This document shows positions 8,287 through 18,176 of a stretch of DNA of 64,000 bases, piece after piece; positions within the stretch are counted from its first letter, which is position 1; the number at the start of each line of letters is the position of its first letter. The translations under genes were made by a program, and so were the position numbers. The notes beneath the pieces are model-generated. The model saw only the letters and a program-made list of their open reading frames with translations, did not search any database and was not told where the DNA came from. The DNA is from Agromyces sp. SYSU T00194 (GTDB lineage: Bacteria; Actinomycetota; Actinomycetes; Actinomycetales; Microbacteriaceae): positions 310,001 to 374,000 of the forward strand of contig NZ_JBEPJZ010000001.1 of NCBI RefSeq assembly GCF_040496035.1, read 5' to 3'.

Positions 8287-8934
8287 GTGACCATCGACGA
8301 GGCATCCGTGCTGTGGTCGTCGTCCGACGCCGACCGCGAGGGGCGCCCGCTGCTGGTGCTGCTGCACGGCTACAACTCGCACGAGGGCGACCTGTTCGGG
8401 CTCGCGCCCTACCTGCCGCTGCAGCCGGTCATCGCGTCGCTGCGCGCCCCGATCGATACCGGCTACGGGTTCGCGTGGTTCCCGCTGCAGGTGCGCGCCG
8501 ACGGGGGCGTCGGACTCGGCGAGGCGGAGGCGCGGCGCGCGGAATCGGCGGCCGACGCGGTGATCGCGTGGGCGGAGGCGCTCGACCCGGCGCCGACCGC
8601 GATCGGCCTGCTCGGCTTCTCGCAGGGCGGGGCGCTCTCGATCGAGCTGCTGCGCCGGCGCAGCGACCTGTTCGACTTCGCCGTGTCGCTGGCGGGCTTC
8701 GTGCTGCCCGGCGAGCGCGCGGGCGACGCGGAGCTCGCGGAGCGGCGGCCGCCGGTCTTCTGGGGCCGCGGCACCGACGACCAGGTGATCCCCGCCGACG
8801 CGATCGCGCGCACCCAGGAGTGGCTGCCGGGTCGGGTCGGCCTCGACGCGCGCATCTACGAGGGGCTCGGGCACGCCGTGTCCGAGCGCGAGCTCGGCGA
8901 CGTGACGGCCTTCCTCAGCGCGCGCTACGCCTGA
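8287..8934 (+). CDS. Alpha/beta hydrolase, phospholipase/carboxylesterase type
   Basis: A serine esterase of the YpfH/carboxylesterase group. The oxyanion segment LVLLHGYNSHEGDLF, the nucleophile elbow GFSQGG, the Asp loop GTDDQVIP and the catalytic His in GLGHAVSEREL are all present. The start is uncertain. The GTG at 8287 (VTIDEASVLW) gives 215 residues, the family length. An ATG at 8227 would add 20 residues that do not look like protein. The best Shine-Dalgarno (GGGAGGGG, 8255-8262) points at an in-frame ATC at 8269. The 3' end overlaps the converging DUF5997 gene by 10 bases. Confidence 0.82.
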   Translation: MTIDEASVLWSSSDADREGRPLLVLLHGYNSHEGDLFGLAPYLPLQPVIASLRAPIDTGYGFAWFPLQVRADGGVGLGEAEARRAESAADAVIAWAEALDPAPTAIGLLGFSQGGALSIELLRRRSDLFDFAVSLAGFVLPGERAGDAELAERRPPVFWGRGTDDQVIPADAIARTQEWLPGRVGLDARIYEGLGHAVSERELGDVTAFLSARYA

Positions 8935-9407
8935 GCGTCGCCGGGTCGATCGACGGATGCCCCGGAGCTGCGCGGCCCCGCGGCATCCGCTCGCCCCGAG
9001 CGCCCGCCGCCGCCCGACTCGTCCGCGCGCCGCGCGGCGCGCTCGGCGTCGCGCTCCTTGACCCGGCGGTTCTCGGCCCGCACGGCGGCCTGCGTCGACC
9101 GCTCGGCGGAGAGCCACTCGGGCATCTCGGCGAGGAGGTCCTGGATCTGCGCGGTCGTGAGCGGTTCGTCGATGCCCGCGCGGGCGAGGCCGGAGTTGGA
9201 GACGCCGAGCTTGCGCGCGACCTCCTGACGCGGGTGCGGGCCCTCGCGCCGCAGCACCTGCAGCCACTCGGGCGGGTCGGCCTGCAGCTCGTCGAGCGTC
9301 GCGCGGGTCACCGGCCCGTCGCGGAACTCCTCGGGCGCCGCGGACAGGAGGATGCCCAGCTTCTTCGCCGCCGTCTCGGGCTTCATGGTCTGGCCGCCTG
9401 CACTCAC
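8925..9407 (-). CDS. DUF5997 family protein
   Basis: A 160-residue protein of the actinobacterial DUF5997 family, recognised by MKPETAAKKLGILLSAAPEEF and PEWLQVLRREGPHPRQEVARKLGVSNSGLARAGI; the latter looks like a helix-turn-helix-like segment. The tail is charged and Gly-rich. In many actinobacteria this gene stands head to head with a LysR-type substrate-binding gene, as here, so the pair may form a two-protein sensor; that is inference. GTG at 9407 is preferred over the ATG at 9386 because TACGCT ends 6 bases upstream of it. Confidence 0.72.
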   Translation of the reverse strand: MSAGGQTMKPETAAKKLGILLSAAPEEFRDGPVTRATLDELQADPPEWLQVLRREGPHPRQEVARKLGVSNSGLARAGIDEPLTTAQIQDLLAEMPEWLSAERSTQAAVRAENRRVKERDAERAARRADESGGGGRSGRADAAGPRSSGASVDRPGDAQA

Positions 9408-9413
9408 CGGACC

Positions 9414-9419
9414 AGCGTA
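9414..9419 (-). promoter_or_regulatory. -10 box of a leaderless promoter
   Basis: On the minus strand TACGCT ends 6 bases before the GTG at 9407. Confidence 0.5.
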
Positions 9420-9472
9420 TAGCCTTGGCATGGCCGCGACACCGGGTGCGGCCGGGGAGGCGATCGGGGCTC

Positions 9473-10153
9473 GTGGCGCTCAGGATGAGCTACGTCGAGG
9501 GCGTGAGCCCGTCGAAGTGGTTGCGTGCGTGGGCCGATCGGCGCCCCGACCAGCCGCTCGAGGCGACCCGCGTGCCCGAGGCCGAGCAGCTCGCGGGTCT
9601 CGCGTCGGGCGAGGTCGACCTCGCCTTCGTGCGCCTGCCGGTGCCGACCGACGACCTGCACGCGATTCCCCTCTGGGAGGAGGTCGCGGTGGTCGTCGCC
9701 CCGAAGGACCACGCGATCGCCGCGGTCGACGAGGTCACCCTCGCCGACCTGGAGGACGAGCCGCGCGCGCCGGTGCAGCCGAGCCCGGCCGGCACGATCG
9801 AGCTCGTCGCCGCGGGCACGGGCGTGGCGATCGTGCCGCACTCGATCGCGCGCCTGCACCACCGTCGCGACGTGGTGGCGGTGCCGGTGACGGATGCCCC
9901 GACGACGCGCATCGCGCTGGTCTGGCGCATCGCGCGCGACGACGACGACATCCAGGAGTTCGTCGGCGTCGTGCGCGGGCGCACGTCGCGCTCGTCGCGC
10001 GGGGCCGCCGACGAGGCATCCGCCGCCGCCGAACCGAAGCCCGACGATCGCCGCGGTCGCCGCAGCGCACGGCCGGGCCGCGAGCGCCACGACCGGCGCG
10101 GCACCACCTCGGCGCGCGACGGCCGCAGCAGCCGACGGGGGCGCCGCCGGTGA
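9473..10153 (+). CDS. LysR-type substrate-binding domain protein lacking the DNA-binding domain
   Basis: The 226 residues match the effector-binding half of LysR regulators: MSYVEGVSPSKWLRAW at the start, GEVDLAFVRLPV (the usual LDVA...R segment), and GTGVAIVPHSIARLHHRRDVVAVPV near the end of the fold. The winged helix that normally occupies residues 1-60 is absent, so it cannot bind DNA as LysR proteins do. From about residue 175 the chain is a basic Arg/Ser/Gly tail. The start is GTG at 9473. It overlaps the following amidotransferase gene by 4 bases and is divergent from DUF5997. Confidence 0.78.
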   Translation: MALRMSYVEGVSPSKWLRAWADRRPDQPLEATRVPEAEQLAGLASGEVDLAFVRLPVPTDDLHAIPLWEEVAVVVAPKDHAIAAVDEVTLADLEDEPRAPVQPSPAGTIELVAAGTGVAIVPHSIARLHHRRDVVAVPVTDAPTTRIALVWRIARDDDDIQEFVGVVRGRTSRSSRGAADEASAAAEPKPDDRRGRRSARPGRERHDRRGTTSARDGRSSRRGRRR

Positions 10154-10878
10154 AGCCGTTCCTGTTCCTCTCCGCCAGGCCCGAGGTCGAGGCCGTCGGG
10201 CCCGAGTACGAGTCGGTGCGCTCCGCGATGGACCTCGATGCGGGCCGCCTCGAGCACCACCGGCTCGACGTGGCGGGCCTCGAGCGCCAGGACCTCTCCG
10301 CGTTCGCGGGCGTCGTGGTCGGCGGCAGCCCGTTCAACGTGACGACCGCGCCCGAGCACGTCTCCGACGTGCAGCGGCGCGTCGAGGACGACCTCGCCTG
10401 GGTCGCCGAGCGCGGCCTCGCCGGCGAGGTGCCCGTGCTGTTCACCTGCTACGGCATCGGCGTGCTCACGCGCGTGCTCGGCGGCGAGGTCGGGCTCGAC
10501 CACGGCGAGGAGGCGCAGGCCGTGCGCGTGGAGCTGACCGACGAGGGGCGGCTCGACCCGCTGACCGGCGTGCTGCCGCCCGAGTTCGAGGCGCTCGTCG
10601 GGCACAAGGAGGCGACCGTGCGGCTGCCGGAGCGGGCCACGCTGCTCGCCGGCTCGGCGACCTGCCCGGTGCAGGTGTACCGCGTGGGCACGCGCGTCTA
10701 CGCCACCCAGTTCCACCCCGAGGTCACCTCGGCCGACTTCGTGGCGCGGGCGCGGGTGTACCGCCACCACGGGTACTTCCCGGCGCGCGAGATGGCCGCG
10801 GTCGAGGCCCGCATCAACGGCGCGTCCGTCACCTGGCCGCGCACGATGCTCGCGCGGTTCGCCGAGCTGTTCGGGTAG
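10150..10878 (+). CDS. Class I glutamine amidotransferase-like protein
   Basis: A 242-residue stand-alone GATase1 domain of the GMP-synthase-like group. The nucleophile is Cys100 in FTCYGIGVL, with His189 and Glu191 in QFHPEVT completing the triad; FAGVVVGGSPFNV is the oxyanion-side loop. Such free-standing proteins hydrolyse glutamine or act on gamma-glutamyl compounds, and the real substrate is unknown. It is translationally coupled to the LysR-like gene (GTGA overlap), which suggests the two are made together. Confidence 0.85.
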   Translation: MKPFLFLSARPEVEAVGPEYESVRSAMDLDAGRLEHHRLDVAGLERQDLSAFAGVVVGGSPFNVTTAPEHVSDVQRRVEDDLAWVAERGLAGEVPVLFTCYGIGVLTRVLGGEVGLDHGEEAQAVRVELTDEGRLDPLTGVLPPEFEALVGHKEATVRLPERATLLAGSATCPVQVYRVGTRVYATQFHPEVTSADFVARARVYRHHGYFPAREMAAVEARINGASVTWPRTMLARFAELFG

Positions 10879-10890
10879 CGGGCCGGCCGG

Positions 10891-13413
10891 TCACGCCTCC
10901 TCGGTGACGTCGGCGGGGTCGACGTCGGGGCGCAGTCCGCGCCAGGTGGGGTGGCGGGCGAGGCCCGCGGGCGTCCACTCGCCGAACGCGATCTCGCCGA
11001 CGAGACGCGGGTCGACCCACACGGCATCGGATGCCTCGGCCGGCGGCATCTCGACGAACGGGCTGTCCGCCCGGCGCAGCGGCTCCAGCAGCCCCGCGAT
11101 GCGGGTGAGCTGCGCGTCGCTGAAGCCCGTGCCGACCCGCCCCGCGTAGCGGAGTCCCCCGGCGCCGGGGATGCCGATGAGCAACGAACCGAACGTGCCC
11201 TCGCGCATGCCCTTGCCCGGCCGCCAGCCGCCGACGACCACGGACTGCACGCGCTCGTGCTTGACCTTCAGCCAGTCGGGCGAGCGGGCGCCGGGCCGGT
11301 AGCGCGAGTCGGCGTCCTTCGCCACGACGCCCTCGAGGCCGAGCGCGCGGCTCTGCTCGATCGCGGCGGCGACGTCGCCGACGAACGCGGGCGGCACCTG
11401 CACGGGCGATGCGGGGTCGGGCGGCACGAGGCGTTCGAGCAGGTCGCGGCGGTCGCGGTACGGCCGGTCGACGACCGACTCGCCGTCGACGGCGAGCACG
11501 TCGAACAGCAGCAGGCGCACGGGCACGCGCTCGGCCGCGGCGCGGATCTCGCGCGGCGCGGTGAGGTGCATCCGCTGCTGCATGCGCCCGAAGTCGGGGC
11601 GGCCGCTCGCGTCGAGCGCGACGACCTCGCCGTCGAGCACCGCTTGAGCGGCATCGACGCGGGTCGGCAGGCCGGCGAGCTCGGGGTAGCGCGCGGCGAC
11701 TTCGACGCCGTTGCGCGTGAACATCCGGAGCCCGCCGTCGTCGACCTCGACGAGGGCACGCATGCCGTCCCACTTCATCTCGGCGACCCAGTCGCCCTCG
11801 CGGAGATCGAGCGGTCGGGCCACGGTGGCGAGCATGGGGCGCCACGTGAAGGGGCGATCGGGCTCGGGGGCCGCAGCCCCGGGCGCCCGCGTGGCGGGAG
11901 CCGGCGCGGAGGTCGACGGCGCGGCGGGCTCGGTCGACTCCACGACGCGCGGGCGCGGCGCCGGCCGCATCCGCGCGGGCCGCTTCATGCGGTGCAGCAG
12001 CCAGGTCGACTTCTCGCCCGACCCGTCGGTGCGGATGAGCGCGAACCGCCCGTCGCCCGCCGGCCCGCCGCGGTCGGTGTGCAGCGTCACGATCACCTCG
12101 TCGTCGCGCCACTTCTCGAGGTCGTAGACCCCGGTATCCCACAGGTCGACCCGGCCGGCGCCGTATTCCCCTGTCGGAATGGTGCCCTCGAAGGTGGCGT
12201 ACTCGAGCGGGTGGTCCTCGGTCATGACCGCGAGGTGGTTGCGCCCCGACTCCTCGGGCAGCCCCTTCGGCACGGCCCAGCTCACCAGCACGCCGTCGTG
12301 CTCGAGGCGGACGTCGTAGTGCTCGCGGCTGGCGAAGTGGTGCTGGATCACGAATCGCGGCAGGTCGCCCGGCGCGGGCGGCGCGGCACCGGCGGCGGGC
12401 ACGGGTTCTGGCGTGCGGTCGGCCGAGCGCTTCTCGCGGTAGCGGCCGAGGCGATCGGATGCCCCCTGGGCGGCGGCGTCCGCCACGGTCGCCATGAACT
12501 CCCCCGGCGACGCGCCCACGTGTCCCTGGCGGAGCGGCTCCATGGGATCGCCGCGCTCTGCGACCAGCGCGAGCACCTCGCCGTACTCGAGGTGGCGCAG
12601 CTCGGCGTCGGCGAGCTCCTCCCACGTGCGGGGCGCCGCGACCGTCGGCCGGAACCGGCCGCGCAACGAGTACGGCGCGATGGTCGTCTTCTTGCCGTTG
12701 TTCTGGCTCCAGTCGAGGAACACCCGGCCGGGCCGGACGGACTTGCTCATGGAGCTCACGACGAGCTTCGGGTGGTCGGCCTCGAGGCTGCGGGCGAGCT
12801 CGCGGGCCAGGGCGCTCGCCTGGTCGCTCGAGAGCGTCCCGTCGAGGGGGGCGTAGAGGTGGATGCCCTTGGACCCGCTCGTCACGGGCACCGAGGCGAG
12901 GCCCATGCCGTCGAGGATCTCGCGGACGAGGAACGCCACCTCGGCGCATCCGCCGAGCCCCACCCCCTCGCCCGGGTCGAGGTCGAGCACCAGCCGGTCG
13001 GGGTGCTGCGGAGTGCCGGCCGCGTCGAACCGCCACTGCGGCACGTGCAGTTCGAGCGCCGCGAGCTGGGCGAGCCAGACCAGCGTCGGCAGGTCGTCGA
13101 CCACGGGGTAGGTGTTGTCGTGGTCGGAGTGCGGGATGCGCGCCCGCCGCACCCAGTCGGGAGTGCCCTGGCCGAGGTCCTTCGCGAAGAACGTGCCGCC
13201 CGGGGCATCCGCCGTGCCCACCCCGTCGACCCAGCGCTTGCGGGTGCACGGGCGCCCGGCCACGTACGGCAGCAGCACCGGCGCGATCTCGGCGTAGTAG
13301 CCGATCACGTCGCCCTTGGTCGTGCCCGCCTCGGGGTACATGACCTTGTCGAGGCTCGTGATGCGCAGGCGGCGTCCGCCCACCTGCACGACCTGCTCCC
13401 CCGACCCCGGCAT
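10891..13413 (-). CDS. ligD: Multifunctional ATP-dependent DNA ligase of NHEJ (LigD)
   Basis: An 840-residue LigD with the mycobacterial domain order: polymerase/primase domain first (from about residue 10, with LVLDLDPGEG and KGIHLYAPLDG), then the 3'-phosphoesterase (FVIQHHFASREHYDVRLEHDG and EDHPLEYATFEGTIP, about 360-480), then the ligase (EMKWDGMRALVE with the catalytic Lys, and EGVVAKDADSRYRPG). With Ku it repairs double-strand breaks without a template. Linkers between domains are Pro/Ala-rich. ATG at 13413 has AGGA upstream. It is divergent from ku across 60 bases. Confidence 0.95.
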   Translation of the reverse strand: MPGSGEQVVQVGGRRLRITSLDKVMYPEAGTTKGDVIGYYAEIAPVLLPYVAGRPCTRKRWVDGVGTADAPGGTFFAKDLGQGTPDWVRRARIPHSDHDNTYPVVDDLPTLVWLAQLAALELHVPQWRFDAAGTPQHPDRLVLDLDPGEGVGLGGCAEVAFLVREILDGMGLASVPVTSGSKGIHLYAPLDGTLSSDQASALARELARSLEADHPKLVVSSMSKSVRPGRVFLDWSQNNGKKTTIAPYSLRGRFRPTVAAPRTWEELADAELRHLEYGEVLALVAERGDPMEPLRQGHVGASPGEFMATVADAAAQGASDRLGRYREKRSADRTPEPVPAAGAAPPAPGDLPRFVIQHHFASREHYDVRLEHDGVLVSWAVPKGLPEESGRNHLAVMTEDHPLEYATFEGTIPTGEYGAGRVDLWDTGVYDLEKWRDDEVIVTLHTDRGGPAGDGRFALIRTDGSGEKSTWLLHRMKRPARMRPAPRPRVVESTEPAAPSTSAPAPATRAPGAAAPEPDRPFTWRPMLATVARPLDLREGDWVAEMKWDGMRALVEVDDGGLRMFTRNGVEVAARYPELAGLPTRVDAAQAVLDGEVVALDASGRPDFGRMQQRMHLTAPREIRAAAERVPVRLLLFDVLAVDGESVVDRPYRDRRDLLERLVPPDPASPVQVPPAFVGDVAAAIEQSRALGLEGVVAKDADSRYRPGARSPDWLKVKHERVQSVVVGGWRPGKGMREGTFGSLLIGIPGAGGLRYAGRVGTGFSDAQLTRIAGLLEPLRRADSPFVEMPPAEASDAVWVDPRLVGEIAFGEWTPAGLARHPTWRGLRPDVDPADVTEEA

Positions 13414-13473
13414 GCCCCCATCCTGCCGCGCGAGGGCTGGCCGTGGCATCCGTTCGGGTGTTCACTAAGGGGT

Positions 13474-14274
13474 ATGCGTTCCATCTGGAAGGGCGCGCTG
13501 ACCTTCGGGCTCGTCAACGTGCCGGTGAAGTTGTACAGCGCCACCGAAGACCACGACGTGTCGCTGCACCAGGTGCACGAGGCCGACGGCGGGCGGATCC
13601 GCTACGAGCGGCGCTGCGAGGTGTGCGGCAAGGTCGTGAAGTACCAGGACATCGACAAGGCGTACGACGACGGCGAGCACACCGTCATCCTCACCAAGGA
13701 CGACTTCGACGCGCTGCCCGCCGAGCGCAGTCGCGAGATCGAGGTCGTCGAGTTCGTGCCGAACGATCAGATCGACCCGCTCATGTTCGAGCGCAGCTAC
13801 TACCTCGAGCCCGACTCGAAGTCGCCCAAGGCGTACGTGCTGCTGCGACGCACGCTCGAGTCGACCGACCGCACCGCGATCGTGCGCTTCGCCCTGCGGC
13901 AGAAGACGCGGCTGGCCGCCCTGCGCGTGCGCGACGACGTGCTCGTGCTGCAGACGCTGCTCTGGGCCGACGAGGTGCGCGAGGCGAAGTTCGGTTCGAT
14001 CGACGAGGAGGTGAAGATCTCGCAGAAGGAGCTCGACCTCTCGAACAGCCTCGTCGAGAGCTTCGCCGACGACTTCCACCCCGAGAACTTCGAGGACGAG
14101 TACCAGGTCGAGCTGCGCAAGCTCATCGACGCGAAGATCGAGCAGGGCGAGGCGATCGACACCGCCGCGACCTTCGGCGAGCGCGAGGAGGGTGAGCCAG
14201 GCGGCGAGGTCATCGACCTCATGGAAGCGCTGCGGCGCAGCGTCGACTCGGCGCGGGCGCGCAAGAGCGGGTAG
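13474..14274 (+). CDS. ku: Non-homologous end joining protein Ku
   Basis: A 266-residue bacterial Ku, the homodimeric ring that binds DNA ends and recruits LigD. The opening MRSIWKGALTFGLVNVPVKLYSAT is diagnostic, followed by CEVCGKVV and the core YVLLRRTLESTDRTAIVRFALRQK. The C-terminus is short, with few Lys, so it is a minimal Ku without the long basic extension. AAGGGG precedes the ATG. It is divergent from ligD, and a perfect palindromic terminator follows the stop. Confidence 0.96.
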   Translation: MRSIWKGALTFGLVNVPVKLYSATEDHDVSLHQVHEADGGRIRYERRCEVCGKVVKYQDIDKAYDDGEHTVILTKDDFDALPAERSREIEVVEFVPNDQIDPLMFERSYYLEPDSKSPKAYVLLRRTLESTDRTAIVRFALRQKTRLAALRVRDDVLVLQTLLWADEVREAKFGSIDEEVKISQKELDLSNSLVESFADDFHPENFEDEYQVELRKLIDAKIEQGEAIDTAATFGEREEGEPGGEVIDLMEALRRSVDSARARKSG

Positions 14275-14299
14275 GGATGGCGGGCGTCAGGGCCCGGAG

Positions 14300-14343
14300 A
14301 CGACGGATGCCGCGGCGGAACGTTCCGCCGCGGCATCCGTCGT
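14300..14343. terminator. Bidirectional terminator, perfect 44-bp palindrome
   Basis: An uninterrupted inverted repeat of 22 bp per arm centred between 14321 and 14322, between the converging ku and glsB-like genes. Both arms carry the CGGATGCC/GGCATCCG motif. Symmetry suggests it serves both genes. Confidence 0.75.
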
Positions 14344-14349
14344 TCGTGC

Positions 14350-14607
14350 TCAGCGCTTGCGCGTGAACAGGCTGAAGATGAGGATGACGACGATCGAGCC
14401 GAGGATGGCGACGATCCAGGTCTGCCAGCTCCAGAACTCCTCGAGTCCGACGCCGAAGAGGACGCTGCCCAGCCAGCCGCCGAGGAGCGCGCCGACCACG
14501 CCGAGCAGCAGCGTGATGAACCATCCTCCGCCCTGCCTGCCGGGGAGGATCAGCTTGGCGATCGCGCCGGCGAGGAGGCCGAGGATGAGAAATGCGAAGA
14601 ATCCCAT
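14350..14607 (-). CDS. GlsB/YeaQ/YmgE family stress-response membrane protein
   Basis: An 85-residue integral membrane protein with three predicted helices. FLILGLLAGAIAKLILPGR, the following GGGWFITLLLGVVGALLGGWLG and a basic tail (FTRKR) match the GlsB/YeaQ/YmgE family (transglycosylase-associated protein family). Members are induced by envelope or general stress, but no biochemical activity is established. The ATG at 14607 is preceded by GAAAGAAGGG, a strong ribosome-binding site. Confidence 0.9.
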   Translation of the reverse strand: MGFFAFLILGLLAGAIAKLILPGRQGGGWFITLLLGVVGALLGGWLGSVLFGVGLEEFWSWQTWIVAILGSIVVILIFSLFTRKR

Positions 14608-14751
14608 TGGGGTGCCCTTCTTTCATTCAGGTAGTGCTCAGCAAACCACCACCGAGCGTGCGGGGGAAGCCCTTGCCCCGGGTGTGCTCCGACTGGTAAC
14701 CGGCCGGCCATGATCGGTCGGACGACCGATGCCGGGGCGGATCGGTCGCCG

Positions 14752-14757
14752 TAGCGT
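14752..14757 (+). promoter_or_regulatory. -10 box of a leaderless promoter
   Basis: TAGCGT ends 7 bases before the ATG at 14765. Confidence 0.5.
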
Positions 14758-14764
14758 TCGGCGC

Positions 14765-15760
14765 ATGCGCACCGCACCACCCGCCACCGCCGTCCATTCG
14801 TCCACCCGCCGCACCCCGGGCCGACGCACCGCCGTCGCCGGCGCGACGCTCGTCGCGCTCGTCGCGGTGCTCGTCACCGGCACCGCCGTCGCCGCCGACG
14901 AGACGCCGGAGTCGTTCCACGCCTGCATCGACGACAAGGGGCGACTCAGTGACGTGACCTTCGGGGGTGAGCCGGCCGAGTGCGGGCCGAAGGCCGCTCC
15001 GGTGTCGTGGAGCGCGGGCGGCGAGACCGGGCCGCAGGGGCCGCAGGGCGAACCCGGCCCGCAGGGCGAACCCGGCCCGACGGGCGACACTGGCCCGCAG
15101 GGCCCGCAGGGCGAGCCCGGCGAACTGCCCGACCAGATGTGCCCCGACGGCGAGTTCGTCATCGGGGTCGCGGACGGCGCGCTGGTGTGCGGTCCGCTCG
15201 ACGGCGGCGGGCCCGGGCCGGACCCCGAGCCGGAGCCGCTCGCGCCGCTGCGGGTCAGCGTGCAGCCGATCTCGGTCTGCCTCGACGACGGCACCGAGTG
15301 CGCGCCCGTCTCGATCGACGAGACGCTGCTCGACGAGATCTGGGCGCAGGCCGCGGTCGACGTCGAGGTGCTGCCGACGACCACGCTCGACTCGACCCGG
15401 CTGGTCGAGACGCAGTGCGGCGGACCGTTCCTCGACGCGGTCGAGGACGTGCTGCCCGACAGCCTCCGCGAGGACGCACCGCTGAAGCTCTTCGTCGCGA
15501 ACTGCATCGAGGCGGGCGGGAACGCGTGGGTGGGATTCAACGGCATGAACGCGCACCCCGACCTGATCACCGCCGTGCCCCTGGTCGTCGCGAGGCACGT
15601 CGGGTACAACCTCGGGCTGTCGACCCGGAGCATCTACGATCCCGCGTACCAGCCGGGCGCGTTGATGAATCCGACGCTGGCCGACGCCGGGAACCTGCTC
15701 CTCGAGGACGAGATCGCACAGGCCCGGGAATCCCGGTTCCTGGAGCCGGTCGCTGGTTAG
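14765..15760 (+). CDS. Secreted collagen-like protein with a degenerate metzincin-like C-terminal domain
   Basis: A 331-residue exported protein. Residues 1-44 form a signal peptide (Arg-rich start, hydrophobic core, cleavage near AVAA). Residues 50-85 resemble the Cys-pair module before many bacterial collagen-like stalks (FHACIDDKGRL...C...VSWSAGG). A Gly-X-Y stretch (GPQGPQGEPG...) spans about residues 89-119. The rest, from VSVQPISVCLDDG, resembles secreted metzincins: ARHVGYNLGL occupies the place of the zinc motif HExxHNLGL and ALMNP that of the Met-turn, but no zinc ligand remains. The last two thirds are paralogous to the next gene. I infer a non-catalytic surface protein; the function is unknown. 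Confidence 0.6.
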   Translation: MRTAPPATAVHSSTRRTPGRRTAVAGATLVALVAVLVTGTAVAADETPESFHACIDDKGRLSDVTFGGEPAECGPKAAPVSWSAGGETGPQGPQGEPGPQGEPGPTGDTGPQGPQGEPGELPDQMCPDGEFVIGVADGALVCGPLDGGGPGPDPEPEPLAPLRVSVQPISVCLDDGTECAPVSIDETLLDEIWAQAAVDVEVLPTTTLDSTRLVETQCGGPFLDAVEDVLPDSLREDAPLKLFVANCIEAGGNAWVGFNGMNAHPDLITAVPLVVARHVGYNLGLSTRSIYDPAYQPGALMNPTLADAGNLLLEDEIAQARESRFLEPVAG

Positions 15761-15769
15761 GGCGGCCGG

Positions 15770-16654
15770 ATGAGCGACGGAGCCGACCAAGAGCCACGCA
15801 CCGACGACGCTGCCCCGGTGAGCGAGCAGCCTCGCACCGGCGGAGGGCCTTCGAAGCGCACGATCGGGCTCATCGCGGCAGGCGCGGGGGTGCTGGTGCT
15901 GCTGATCTCGGGATCGGTCGCGCTGGGCATGGTCGCGGGAGCGGCGATGTTCCGGTCGCAGGCTGCGCCCGTGGTCGAGGCGGCGAGCGCGACGGATGCC
16001 CCTGAGACGACGGCTCCGGAAACGCCATCGGCGTCGCCGACCCCGTCGCCCGACGGCTCGACGGCCGCCGCGCCGGCGCCTGCGCCTCCCGCCGGCGGCG
16101 CCGACGACGACAGCGACGGCGACGGCGACGGCGGCACCACGGACGGTGGAGTGCAGCAGCTGCACGTGAGCGTGCAGCCGATCTCGGTCTGCTACGACGA
16201 CGGCAGCCAGTGCGCTCCGGTGGGCGCGTTCGAGGCGCGAACCAACGAGATCCTCGAACCGGCCGGCATCACCGTCGAGGTCCTGCCGACGGTCGAGCTG
16301 TACCGGTCGTCACTCGTGACCGGCGGGTGCGGCCGGGAGTTCCTGACCGCGGCGCACGTCGCCGGCGACAGCTACGAGGACCCGGCGCCGATCCGGTACT
16401 ACGTCGCCGACTGCGAGCGCGTGGGCGCGGGGCACGCCTGGACGGGCTTCAACGGCTTCGTGGTGAAGTACGGTGAGCCCGACCCGGCCGGGAAGCTCCC
16501 CGCGATGTACCTCGCGGCGAACCTGGGGGTGCCGTACACCTACGATCTGGACTCACCCGCGCGACTCATGGAGCGCAGTACCTACGGCGTCGCCCTCACC
16601 GAGGCGGAGATCGAGATGGCCCGCGCGAGCCACTTCCTCGCGACCGTGGGCTGA
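15770..16654 (+). CDS. Membrane-anchored protein with a degenerate metzincin-like domain, paralogue of the preceding gene
   Basis: A 294-residue type II membrane protein: cytosolic residues 1-29, a transmembrane helix at about 31-58, then a Pro/Ala/Ser/Thr- and Asp-rich linker to about residue 127. The extracellular domain starts VSVQPISVCYDDGSQCAPV, nearly the same as in the upstream protein (VSVQPISVCLDDGTECAPV). Near the end, AANLGVPYT sits where active metzincins have HExxHNLGLPHT, and RLMERSTYG is the Met-turn region; all His and the Glu are gone. It begins 9 bases after the upstream stop, so the two are co-transcribed. Function unknown; probably a binding protein derived from a protease. 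Confidence 0.6.
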   Translation: MSDGADQEPRTDDAAPVSEQPRTGGGPSKRTIGLIAAGAGVLVLLISGSVALGMVAGAAMFRSQAAPVVEAASATDAPETTAPETPSASPTPSPDGSTAAAPAPAPPAGGADDDSDGDGDGGTTDGGVQQLHVSVQPISVCYDDGSQCAPVGAFEARTNEILEPAGITVEVLPTVELYRSSLVTGGCGREFLTAAHVAGDSYEDPAPIRYYVADCERVGAGHAWTGFNGFVVKYGEPDPAGKLPAMYLAANLGVPYTYDLDSPARLMERSTYGVALTEAEIEMARASHFLATVG

Positions 16655-16729
16655 CGCGCCCCCGGGCGCCCGATTCAGTGCCACCCCCGGGATCGCCGGG
16701 AATCGACCGTCGCGGAGATCGCCCGCCGG

Positions 16730-16735
16730 TAGGCT
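16730..16735 (+). promoter_or_regulatory. -10 box of a leaderless promoter
   Basis: TAGGCT ends 7 bases before the GTG at 16743. Confidence 0.5.
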
Positions 16736-16742
16736 CGCCCCC

Positions 16743-17960
16743 GTGGCCGGCGAGACCTACCTGTTCGATGCGTATGCGCTCGACACCGCGCGCCTGCAGC
16801 TGCGCCGCGACGGCGACCCCGTGCACGTCGAGCCCCGCGCGTTCGACGTGCTCGTGCACCTCGTCGAGCGCCGCGAGCGGGTGGTGACCAAGGAGGAGCT
16901 GCTCGACGCCGTTTGGGGCGACCGGTTCGTCAGCGAGGCCGCGCTCACCACCGCCCTGCGCACCGCGCGTCGCGCGGTCGGCGACAGCGGCGAGGCCCAG
17001 CGGGTCGTGCGCACGGTGCACGGGCGCGGGTACCAGTTCGTGGCGGATGCCGCGCTCGAGCGCCCGGCCGCCGAGGCATCCGCTGCGGAGGCATCCGTCA
17101 CCGCCGCTCCCCCGCTCGCCGCCCGCCAGGACATCCGCTTCTGCCGGGCCGCCGACGGCGCCCGCATCGCCTACGCGAGCGTCGGCGACGGACCGCCGCT
17201 GCTGAAGGCCGCGAACTGGATCACCCACCTCGACCTCGAGTGGCGCAGCCCCGTGTGGGGGCACTGGATGCAGGGGCTCGCGCAGGGCCGCACGCTCGTG
17301 CGCTACGACGAGCGGGGCTGCGGCCTCTCCGACTGGGACGTGGGCGAGTTCACGTTCGACGACTGGGTCGACGACCTCGAGACCGTCGTCGACGCGGTCG
17401 GCATCGAGCGCTTCCCGCTGATCGGCGTGTCGCAGGGCGCCGCGGTGGCGCTCGCGTACGCGGTGCGCCATCCCGAGCGCGTGACCAAGCTGATCCTCGC
17501 CGGCGGCTACGCACGCGGGCGCCTGGTGCGCGCGACCAGTGCCGAGGAGCGCTCCGAGGCGGCACTCGACCTCGACCTCGCCCGCGTGGGCTGGGCCCGG
17601 CAGGACCCGAGCTTCATGCGCGTCTTCGCCTCGCAGTTCCTGCCGCAGGGCAGCCAGCAGGAGTGGGACGACTTCACGACCTTCCAGCGGGCGACCACCT
17701 CGGGCCAGAACGCCGTGCGGTTCCTCGAGGAGTTCGCCCGCATCGACGTGTCGGACATCGCGCACCTGGTGCGATGCCCGACCCTCATCGTGCACTCGCG
17801 CGACGACGTGCGCGTGCCCGCGTCGCAGGCCACCGAGCTCGCCGCGCTCATCCCCGACAGCCGGCTCGCGCTGCTCGACAGCGCGAACCACCTGCTCGGG
17901 GCCTCAGAGCCCGCGTGGCCGCAGTTCCTGGCGCACGTGGACGACTTCCTCGCCGCCTGA
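16743..17960 (+). CDS. OmpR-type winged-helix domain fused to an alpha/beta hydrolase
   Basis: A 405-residue fusion. Residues 1-105 are a winged helix of the OmpR/CadC type (HVEPRAFDVLVHLVERRERVV, TALRTARRAVGD, RTVHGRGYQFVA) without a receiver domain. After a short linker with two Glu-Ala-Ser repeats comes an alpha/beta hydrolase (about 125-405) with nucleophile elbow GVSQGAAVALA, Asp in HSRDDVRVP and His in DSANHLLG. A DNA-binding domain joined to a hydrolase suggests a regulator that binds or cleaves a small ester or lactone; this is inference. GTG start with a leaderless-type promoter. The 3' end overlaps the converging gene by 57 bases. Confidence 0.8.
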   Translation: MAGETYLFDAYALDTARLQLRRDGDPVHVEPRAFDVLVHLVERRERVVTKEELLDAVWGDRFVSEAALTTALRTARRAVGDSGEAQRVVRTVHGRGYQFVADAALERPAAEASAAEASVTAAPPLAARQDIRFCRAADGARIAYASVGDGPPLLKAANWITHLDLEWRSPVWGHWMQGLAQGRTLVRYDERGCGLSDWDVGEFTFDDWVDDLETVVDAVGIERFPLIGVSQGAAVALAYAVRHPERVTKLILAGGYARGRLVRATSAEERSEAALDLDLARVGWARQDPSFMRVFASQFLPQGSQQEWDDFTTFQRATTSGQNAVRFLEEFARIDVSDIAHLVRCPTLIVHSRDDVRVPASQATELAALIPDSRLALLDSANHLLGASEPAWPQFLAHVDDFLAA

Positions 17961-18176
17961 GCGCCCCGCGTCGGGGCGCGGGCGTGCGAGGTGGAACGCG
18001 TTGACCGCGACCAGCACGATGTTCAGCGCCACCATCGACGCGATGCCGATGATCGCGTTGAAGACGACCAGCACCACCGCGGCCGCGAGGCCGATCCAGC
18101 GGAGCCGGCGCACGTCGCGCTGCATGAGCGAGCAGACGATGAGGGCCGAGCCGACCCAGCCGAGCGCCTCGATCAT
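17904..18176 (-). CDS. Small YgjV/CBU_0592-like membrane protein
   Basis: A 90-residue membrane protein with about three helices. ALGWVGSALIVCSLMQRDVRRLRWIGLAAAVVLVVFNAIIG resembles the CBU_0592/YgjV-like domain (a Trp-Gly start, then Tyr/Met-Gln-Arg-Asp, then a second helix). Role unknown. Its ATG overlaps the stop of the FAD oxidoreductase gene by 4 bases, so the two are one transcript. The last 19 codons overlap the converging hydrolase gene, which is unusual but both frames look real. Confidence 0.6.
   Translation of the reverse strand: MIEALGWVGSALIVCSLMQRDVRRLRWIGLAAAVVLVVFNAIIGIASMVALNIVLVAVNAFHLARPRPDAGRSGGEEVVHVRQELRPRGL

Follow-up and report, generated by a model that had tools for sequence, protein, structure and literature searches.

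Two adjacent genes of the soil bacterium Agromyces sp. SYSU T00194 encode proteins, P1 and P2, that both terminate with a pseudo-metzincin domain, a metzincin protease fold from which the catalytic zinc site has been lost. We consider it likely that this inert scaffold was reused as an extracellular binding domain, which would make P1 and P2 a pair of extracellular pseudoenzymes in two display formats. Fold, ancestry, active-site loss, architecture and frame conservation were shown computationally. The window referred to below is the whole stretch analysed (64,000 nucleotides of contig NZ_JBEPJZ010000001.1), numbered from its first base.

Architecture and distribution of the pair

Both reading frames lie where the initial annotation had placed them, with starts that match those of the orthologues (Table 1). 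The P1 stop and the P2 start are separated by 9 bases, and the two genes are probably co-transcribed. P1 consists of a hydrophobic N-terminus resembling a signal peptide, a Cys-containing segment, a Gly-X-Y stalk (12 triplets counted) and the C-terminal domain. The collagen stretch matches PF01391 with an E-value of 9.2e-6 and 25.8 bits, 1.4 below the Pfam cut-off of 27.2, and a weak DUF2613 match (E 0.09) covers residues 23-66. The P1 and P2 domains share 42% identity over 172 columns.

Table 1 Features of the P1 and P2 genes and their products (feature; window position; strand; evidence)
P1: putatively exported collagen-stalked pseudo-metzincin, 331 aa	14765..15760	+	ORF, translation, orthologues in G335 and G350
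P1 predicted signal peptide, residues 1-44: basic stretch, hydrophobic core within 21-47, TAVA-ADE at end	14765..14896	+	Hydropathy; cleavage site by eye
P1 collagen-like Gly-X-Y stalk, residues 86-121, 12 triplets	15020..15127	+	Pfam PF01391, triplet count
P1 pseudo-metzincin domain, residues 160-331	15242..15757	+	AlphaFold2, Foldseek and VIA-align metzincin matches, alignment with intact enzymes
P1 former zinc/catalytic motif, residues 277-287 (RHVGYNLGLST); R, H, Y, T at H, E, H, H	15593..15625	+	Alignment, codons
P1 Met-turn methionine, residue 301 (LMNP)	15665..15667	+	Alignment
P2: putatively membrane-anchored pseudo-metzincin, 294 aa	15770..16654	+	ORF, translation, orthologues
P2 predicted single membrane anchor, residues 30-61, behind acidic N-terminus	15857..15952	+	Hydropathy; kept in four genomes; presumed orientation
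P2 Pro/Ala/Thr/Ser/Gly/Asp-rich linker, residues 62-128	15953..16153	+	Sequence
P2 pseudo-metzincin domain, residues 129-294	16154..16651	+	AlphaFold2, metzincin matches, identity to P1 domain
P2 former zinc/catalytic motif, residues 246-256 (MYLAANLGVPY); M, Y, A, Y at H, E, H, H	16505..16537	+	Alignment, codons
P2 Met-turn methionine, residue 267 (LMER)	16568..16570	+	Alignment

A profile of the domain finds it in 4 of 60 Agromyces genomes: that of the window, G335 (with proteins identical to those found in Agromyces rhizosphaerae), G350 (assembled from an uncultured Agromyces) and G326 (whose protein is one of Agromyces mangrovi). The search for the pair in related genomes proposed in the initial annotation thus recovered it, in the same gene order, in G335 and G350. 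G326 carries a single gene, whose product resembles P2 at the N-terminus (77% identity over 77 residues) and has a domain of 26-31% identity; no P1 was found in that genome. When the P2 domain was searched against 299 sampled genomes of the family, a sample that did not include G335, G350 or G326, only the window's own match was returned. Across 396 sampled genomes of the phylum, a seven-row profile matched 2 and a ten-row profile 1, the window's own. A match in G483 (E 0.002 with the seven-row profile) was rejected, as its frames are unlike a metzincin by eye and it is absent with the ten-row profile; weak matches in G301, in G323 and at another site of G326 (E 0.04-0.08) were not recovered by the profile.

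The pair is adjoined by a small gene (14350-14607, minus strand) that is presumably GlsB/YeaQ-like, with two further genes upstream that we take, from their sequences, to be Ku and LigD. This order is common to all four genomes; in G335 the YeaQ-like gene is set off from Ku by an insertion of 6-7 kb. The Ku proteins of G335, G350 and G326 are 98.5-99.2% identical to the window's. The frame after P2 (16473-17960) fuses a Trans_reg_C DNA-binding domain with an alpha/beta hydrolase. This regulator/hydrolase gene and one for an FAD oxidoreductase come directly after P2 in the window; in G335 (L043, about 8637-18000) both are absent from the interval separating P2 from the MFS gene. A segment of 44 bases (14300-14343), located between Ku and the YeaQ-like gene, matches its own opposite strand. 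Segments resembling it are present at other loci in several further Agromyces genomes, with three such sites in G302, and the element is perhaps a dispersed palindromic repeat.

Upstream of the G326 gene, a stretch resembles the 3' end of P1 and might be a remnant of a P1 lost from this genome: its full 62 bases score 27, a value reached by none of 5000 shuffles. Without the ten bases before the ATG, the score is reached by 10 of 5000 shuffles, and higher scores are obtained elsewhere within these 19 kb. The P1 end of G335 and that of G350 both give a score of 32, run without a control.

A phage or plasmid origin was considered and rejected. No relative of the domain was found among viral contigs and phages, and a plasmid search gave three weak matches (E 0.1-0.7). 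Of the two that were inspected, the Cupriavidus stretch has no NLG in its forward frames, and the Sphingobium stretch reads as another protein by eye. The intact relative P0008 (see below) had no plasmid match as query. In PHROGs, the best stretches of P1's best 25 of 26 matches all span the collagen part and P2 has no match; PADLOC returned nothing for P1 or P2.

Fold and intact relatives

The AlphaFold2 model of the P1 domain (pLDDT 88.5), built from an input of sequences without the intact motif only, matches metzincins in both Foldseek and VIA-align, and that of the P2 domain (pLDDT 75.5) matches metzincins too. Both domains are thus modelled with the metzincin catalytic-domain fold, in agreement with the initial annotation, which had assigned the fold by eye and proposed this check. 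In the model, the former motif of P1 lies along helix 114-123 and continues just past its end. Chains of ADAM22 are among the structure matches of both models, at 9-11% identity. No Pfam model matches the domain at E<=10 in any of the 7 Agromyces domains, Reprolysin_3 (PF13582) included, and no solved structure matches it by sequence at a meaningful E-value.

A profile search over 5.8 billion proteins, with scoring confined to the 7998 candidates that had the most words in common, returned the four Agromyces proteins together with P0007 (E 6.4e-11), P0008 (2.3e-8), P0009 (5.7e-7) and the weakest candidate, P0010 (4.5). All four of these additional proteins carry intact motifs: HEIGHNLGLTH in P0007, HEIGHNLGLNH in both P0008 and P0009, and HELGHNLGLGH in P0010. 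The Reprolysin_3 cut-off is passed by P0007-P0009 and not by P0010, and that of the VPLPA-CTERM tail by P0008 and P0009. The seven-domain profile scores P0007-P0009 at 47-60 bits and P0010 at 24.9 bits. With the motif columns cut out, the scores are 49.9 (P0007), 39.5 (P0008), 34.6 (P0009) and 14.7 bits (P0010), compared with at most 7.6 bits for the best of 2000 shuffles per protein. Since the motif-cut profile still scores the intact enzymes above shuffles, the resemblance does not depend on the motif. Direct alignment of P0007 gives 29% identity to P1 over 140 columns, the first Cys pair included, and 29% to P2 over 112 columns. Common descent with intact HEIGHNLGLxH enzymes, as the initial annotation had supposed, is therefore supported by the profile with and without the motif and by direct alignment, and P0007-P0009 are homologues with an intact HExxH, as sought in the search that it had proposed.

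P0007-P0009 share the domain from its first strand to the closing helix with P1 and P2, and P0007 also has the VQPI-VC-x6-CA and NLGL of P1. They differ in their intact motif and in having no collagen match at E<=1, as well as in the VPLPA-CTERM tail of P0008 and P0009. Four Cys residues are invariant across the seven Agromyces domains, the first two being present in P0007 as well. No intact relative was found in the phylum when 7 candidates were scored in each of the 396 sampled genomes.

Loss of the zinc site and constraint on the genes

The strings on which the initial annotation rested are all present: VSVQPISVC-DDG--CAPV, ARHVGYNLGLST and AMYLAANLGVPY in P1 and P2, LMNP and LMER, and AR-S-FL. 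Aligned with the HExxHxxGxxH of intact enzymes, which neither protein retains, P1 has R277, H278, Y281 and T287, and P2 has M246, Y247, A250 and Y256, with the Gly kept in both. Loss in the window is thus complete, as had been claimed, with no zinc ligand and no catalytic Glu remaining; NLG, the Met-turn Met and the closing helix are kept despite it. All 7 Agromyces domains and all 4 aligned intact relatives have the L-M of the Met-turn.

At the positions of the first His, the Glu, and the second and third His, P1 of G335 has R, Y, Y and T, and P1 of G350 has K, Y, H and T, retaining the second His. The P2 motif residues of G335 and G350 are identical to those of the window. In the A. mangrovi homologue all four residues are gone (R, M, L, E), and no His is invariant across the seven domains.

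The suggestion that the two neighbours lost these residues independently is not supported. Tyr occupies the Glu position in all three P2 and in 2 of the 3 P1, the His of the window's P1 is one base from Tyr by its codon, and the A. mangrovi homologue lacks all four residues too. Because Tyr is shared by the paralogues and G326 is also without all four residues, it is most simply assumed that at least the Glu was lost once, probably before the duplication. Loss of the second His may be a later and separate event, since that residue is still present in P1 of G350, where a reversion by one base could also account for it. A tree separates the pseudo from the intact rows (79/81) and leaves the placement of G326 unsupported; it is too weak for timing and serves as a hint only.

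No broken frame was found among the seven genes. In the three pair-bearing genomes, domain dN/dS is 0.33-0.36 for P1 and 0.15-0.37 for P2, and pN/pS between the window and the other two is 0.16-0.43. The dN/dS values lie in the range of the neighbours, those downstream having a pN/pS of 0.22-0.55. The frames are under purifying selection: they are maintained with ordinary constraint, neither decaying nor unusually variable, and this conservation fits the retained non-catalytic role proposed in the initial annotation. The A. mangrovi domain gave dN/dS of 1.06-1.29 (above 1 against P2) and pN about equal to pS; with silent sites perhaps near saturation and an alignment of 26-31% identity, positive selection is not claimed. 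A hypervariable locus, suspected from the 98-99% identity of Ku, was rejected, the downstream neighbours being equally divergent at silent sites in G350 (pS 0.36-0.41).

The P2 domain of the window (16154-16651) is 97% identical to that of G335 (L014, 616-1113), with a pS of 0.09, and the nearby P1 (pS 0.30) and MFS gene (pS 0.40) are far more divergent between the same two genomes. This disparity points to P2 having been exchanged recently by the window species and G335.

Proposed function of the pair and its precedents

Because the zinc site is absent, the domain should not act as a metzincin. An extracellular binding role is suggested by the invariant cysteines, the export signal or anchor, and the occurrence of two display formats. 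The metzincin domain, probably stabilised by disulphides, would serve as a rigid binding scaffold. P2 would be held on the membrane by one N-terminal anchor followed by a flexible linker, acting as a tethered receptor or adhesin. P1 would be exported, and its short collagen-like stalk should gather three copies of the domain into a trimer, giving a multivalent soluble or wall-associated form. Both would most likely bind the same kind of partner, an extracellular protein or peptide. Several points weigh against parts of this proposal. A ligand shared across species is doubtful because the A. mangrovi domain is so divergent and P1 was not found there; the domain, found in only four genomes of Agromyces, leaves little scope to infer function; the collagen stretch is short and just below the Pfam cut-off; and a substituted site could in principle hold metal another way.

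An inert role, as a spacer or building block of a wall coat that is selected for folding only and binds no specific ligand, is rather improbable. The marked divergence seen in A. mangrovi, where pN and pS of the domain are about equal (silent sites maybe near saturation), would fit such a role, but both the constraint between the window and the other pair-bearing genomes and the duplication of the domain onto two different display formats argue against it. Slightly less probable still is regulation of an active metzincin in trans, in which the domain, as a decoy or subunit, would draw inhibitors or propeptides away from a genuine protease of its own cell. Other metallopeptidase families, M16 among them, are known to have inactive partners, according to a review (PMC11266112). 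In the window's own genome, however, the P1 domain as query found only the two domains and one match at E 0.18, PF13583 gave none, and PF05572 gave only one match (E 0.56). Matches over the PF13583 cut-off do occur in 4 of the 60 Agromyces genomes, but in no genome with the pair. Regulation of a metzincin in the same cell is thus less likely, as these queries, covering the sole families searched, gave no credible intact candidate.

That the domain is still an enzyme, with another metal site or other chemistry, seems very unlikely: the fold and Met-turn are kept and the second His is retained in P1 of G350, but there is no His common to all seven domains, and the paralogues disagree at the motif positions. 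A chance likeness of the NLG and LM strings in some different fold, for which only the missing Pfam and solved-structure matches speak, can be dismissed at the computational level given the fold matches of the models, the homology that persists with the motif cut out (shuffle control) and the intact relatives.

For a binding role of the pseudo-metzincin pair, ADAM22 is the closest mechanistic precedent: it is catalytically inactive, and its metalloprotease-like domain binds LGI1 (PMC5906670). In Table 2 of the review, which lists the substitutions of inactive metzincins, the motif reads QTLGQNLGMMWN in ADAM11 and QSLAHNIGIISD in ADAM22, patterns that closely resemble those of P1 and P2 (PMC11266112). 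As in P1 and P2, the metzincin domain of the pseudopeptidase ADAMs (ADAM11, ADAM22 and ADAM23) is without the His and Glu residues and keeps N-[LI]-G and the Met-turn, and ADAM22 retains its second His, as does P1 of G350 (PMC11266112). These ADAMs are also single-pass membrane proteins. They differ in being animal proteins with no collagen stalk, and ADAM22 has disintegrin, Cys-rich and EGF-like domains (PMC5906670), for none of which was a Pfam match found in P1 or P2.

Inactive metzincins in animals and substituted zincin sites in bacteria are already known (PMC11266112, PMC3650047). The sections of the 2024 review at hand treat inactive metzincins as animal ADAMs, its prokaryotic case being M16, another family (PMC11266112). 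The survey excerpt reports that substituted sites occur in bacteria too, His often being replaced by Arg or Lys, as at the first His of P1; the CLCA and other zincins it describes belong to different zincin families, and no collagen-stalked and membrane-bound pair is named in that excerpt (PMC3650047). Among the matches listed from the open-licence literature, none described a comparable bacterial pair. P1 also matches the collagen part of the models of bacterial collagen-like adhesins (Scl1/SclA, Lcl), and falls far below their family cut-offs. The globular domains of these adhesins are not known to be metzincins.

More tentatively, by analogy, P1 and P2 might be a bacterial counterpart of an ADAM22-type receptor, in which one dead scaffold was duplicated into trivalent collagen-stalked secreted and membrane-tethered forms whose joint extracellular target is particular to a small clade of Agromyces; we regard this as possible, though not the expected outcome. 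P1 and P2 most likely grip an extracellular target rather than cut it. With intact relatives, an orthologue that keeps one zinc His and two display formats, they offer a small, tractable case of the passage from a secreted protease to a probable binding protein.
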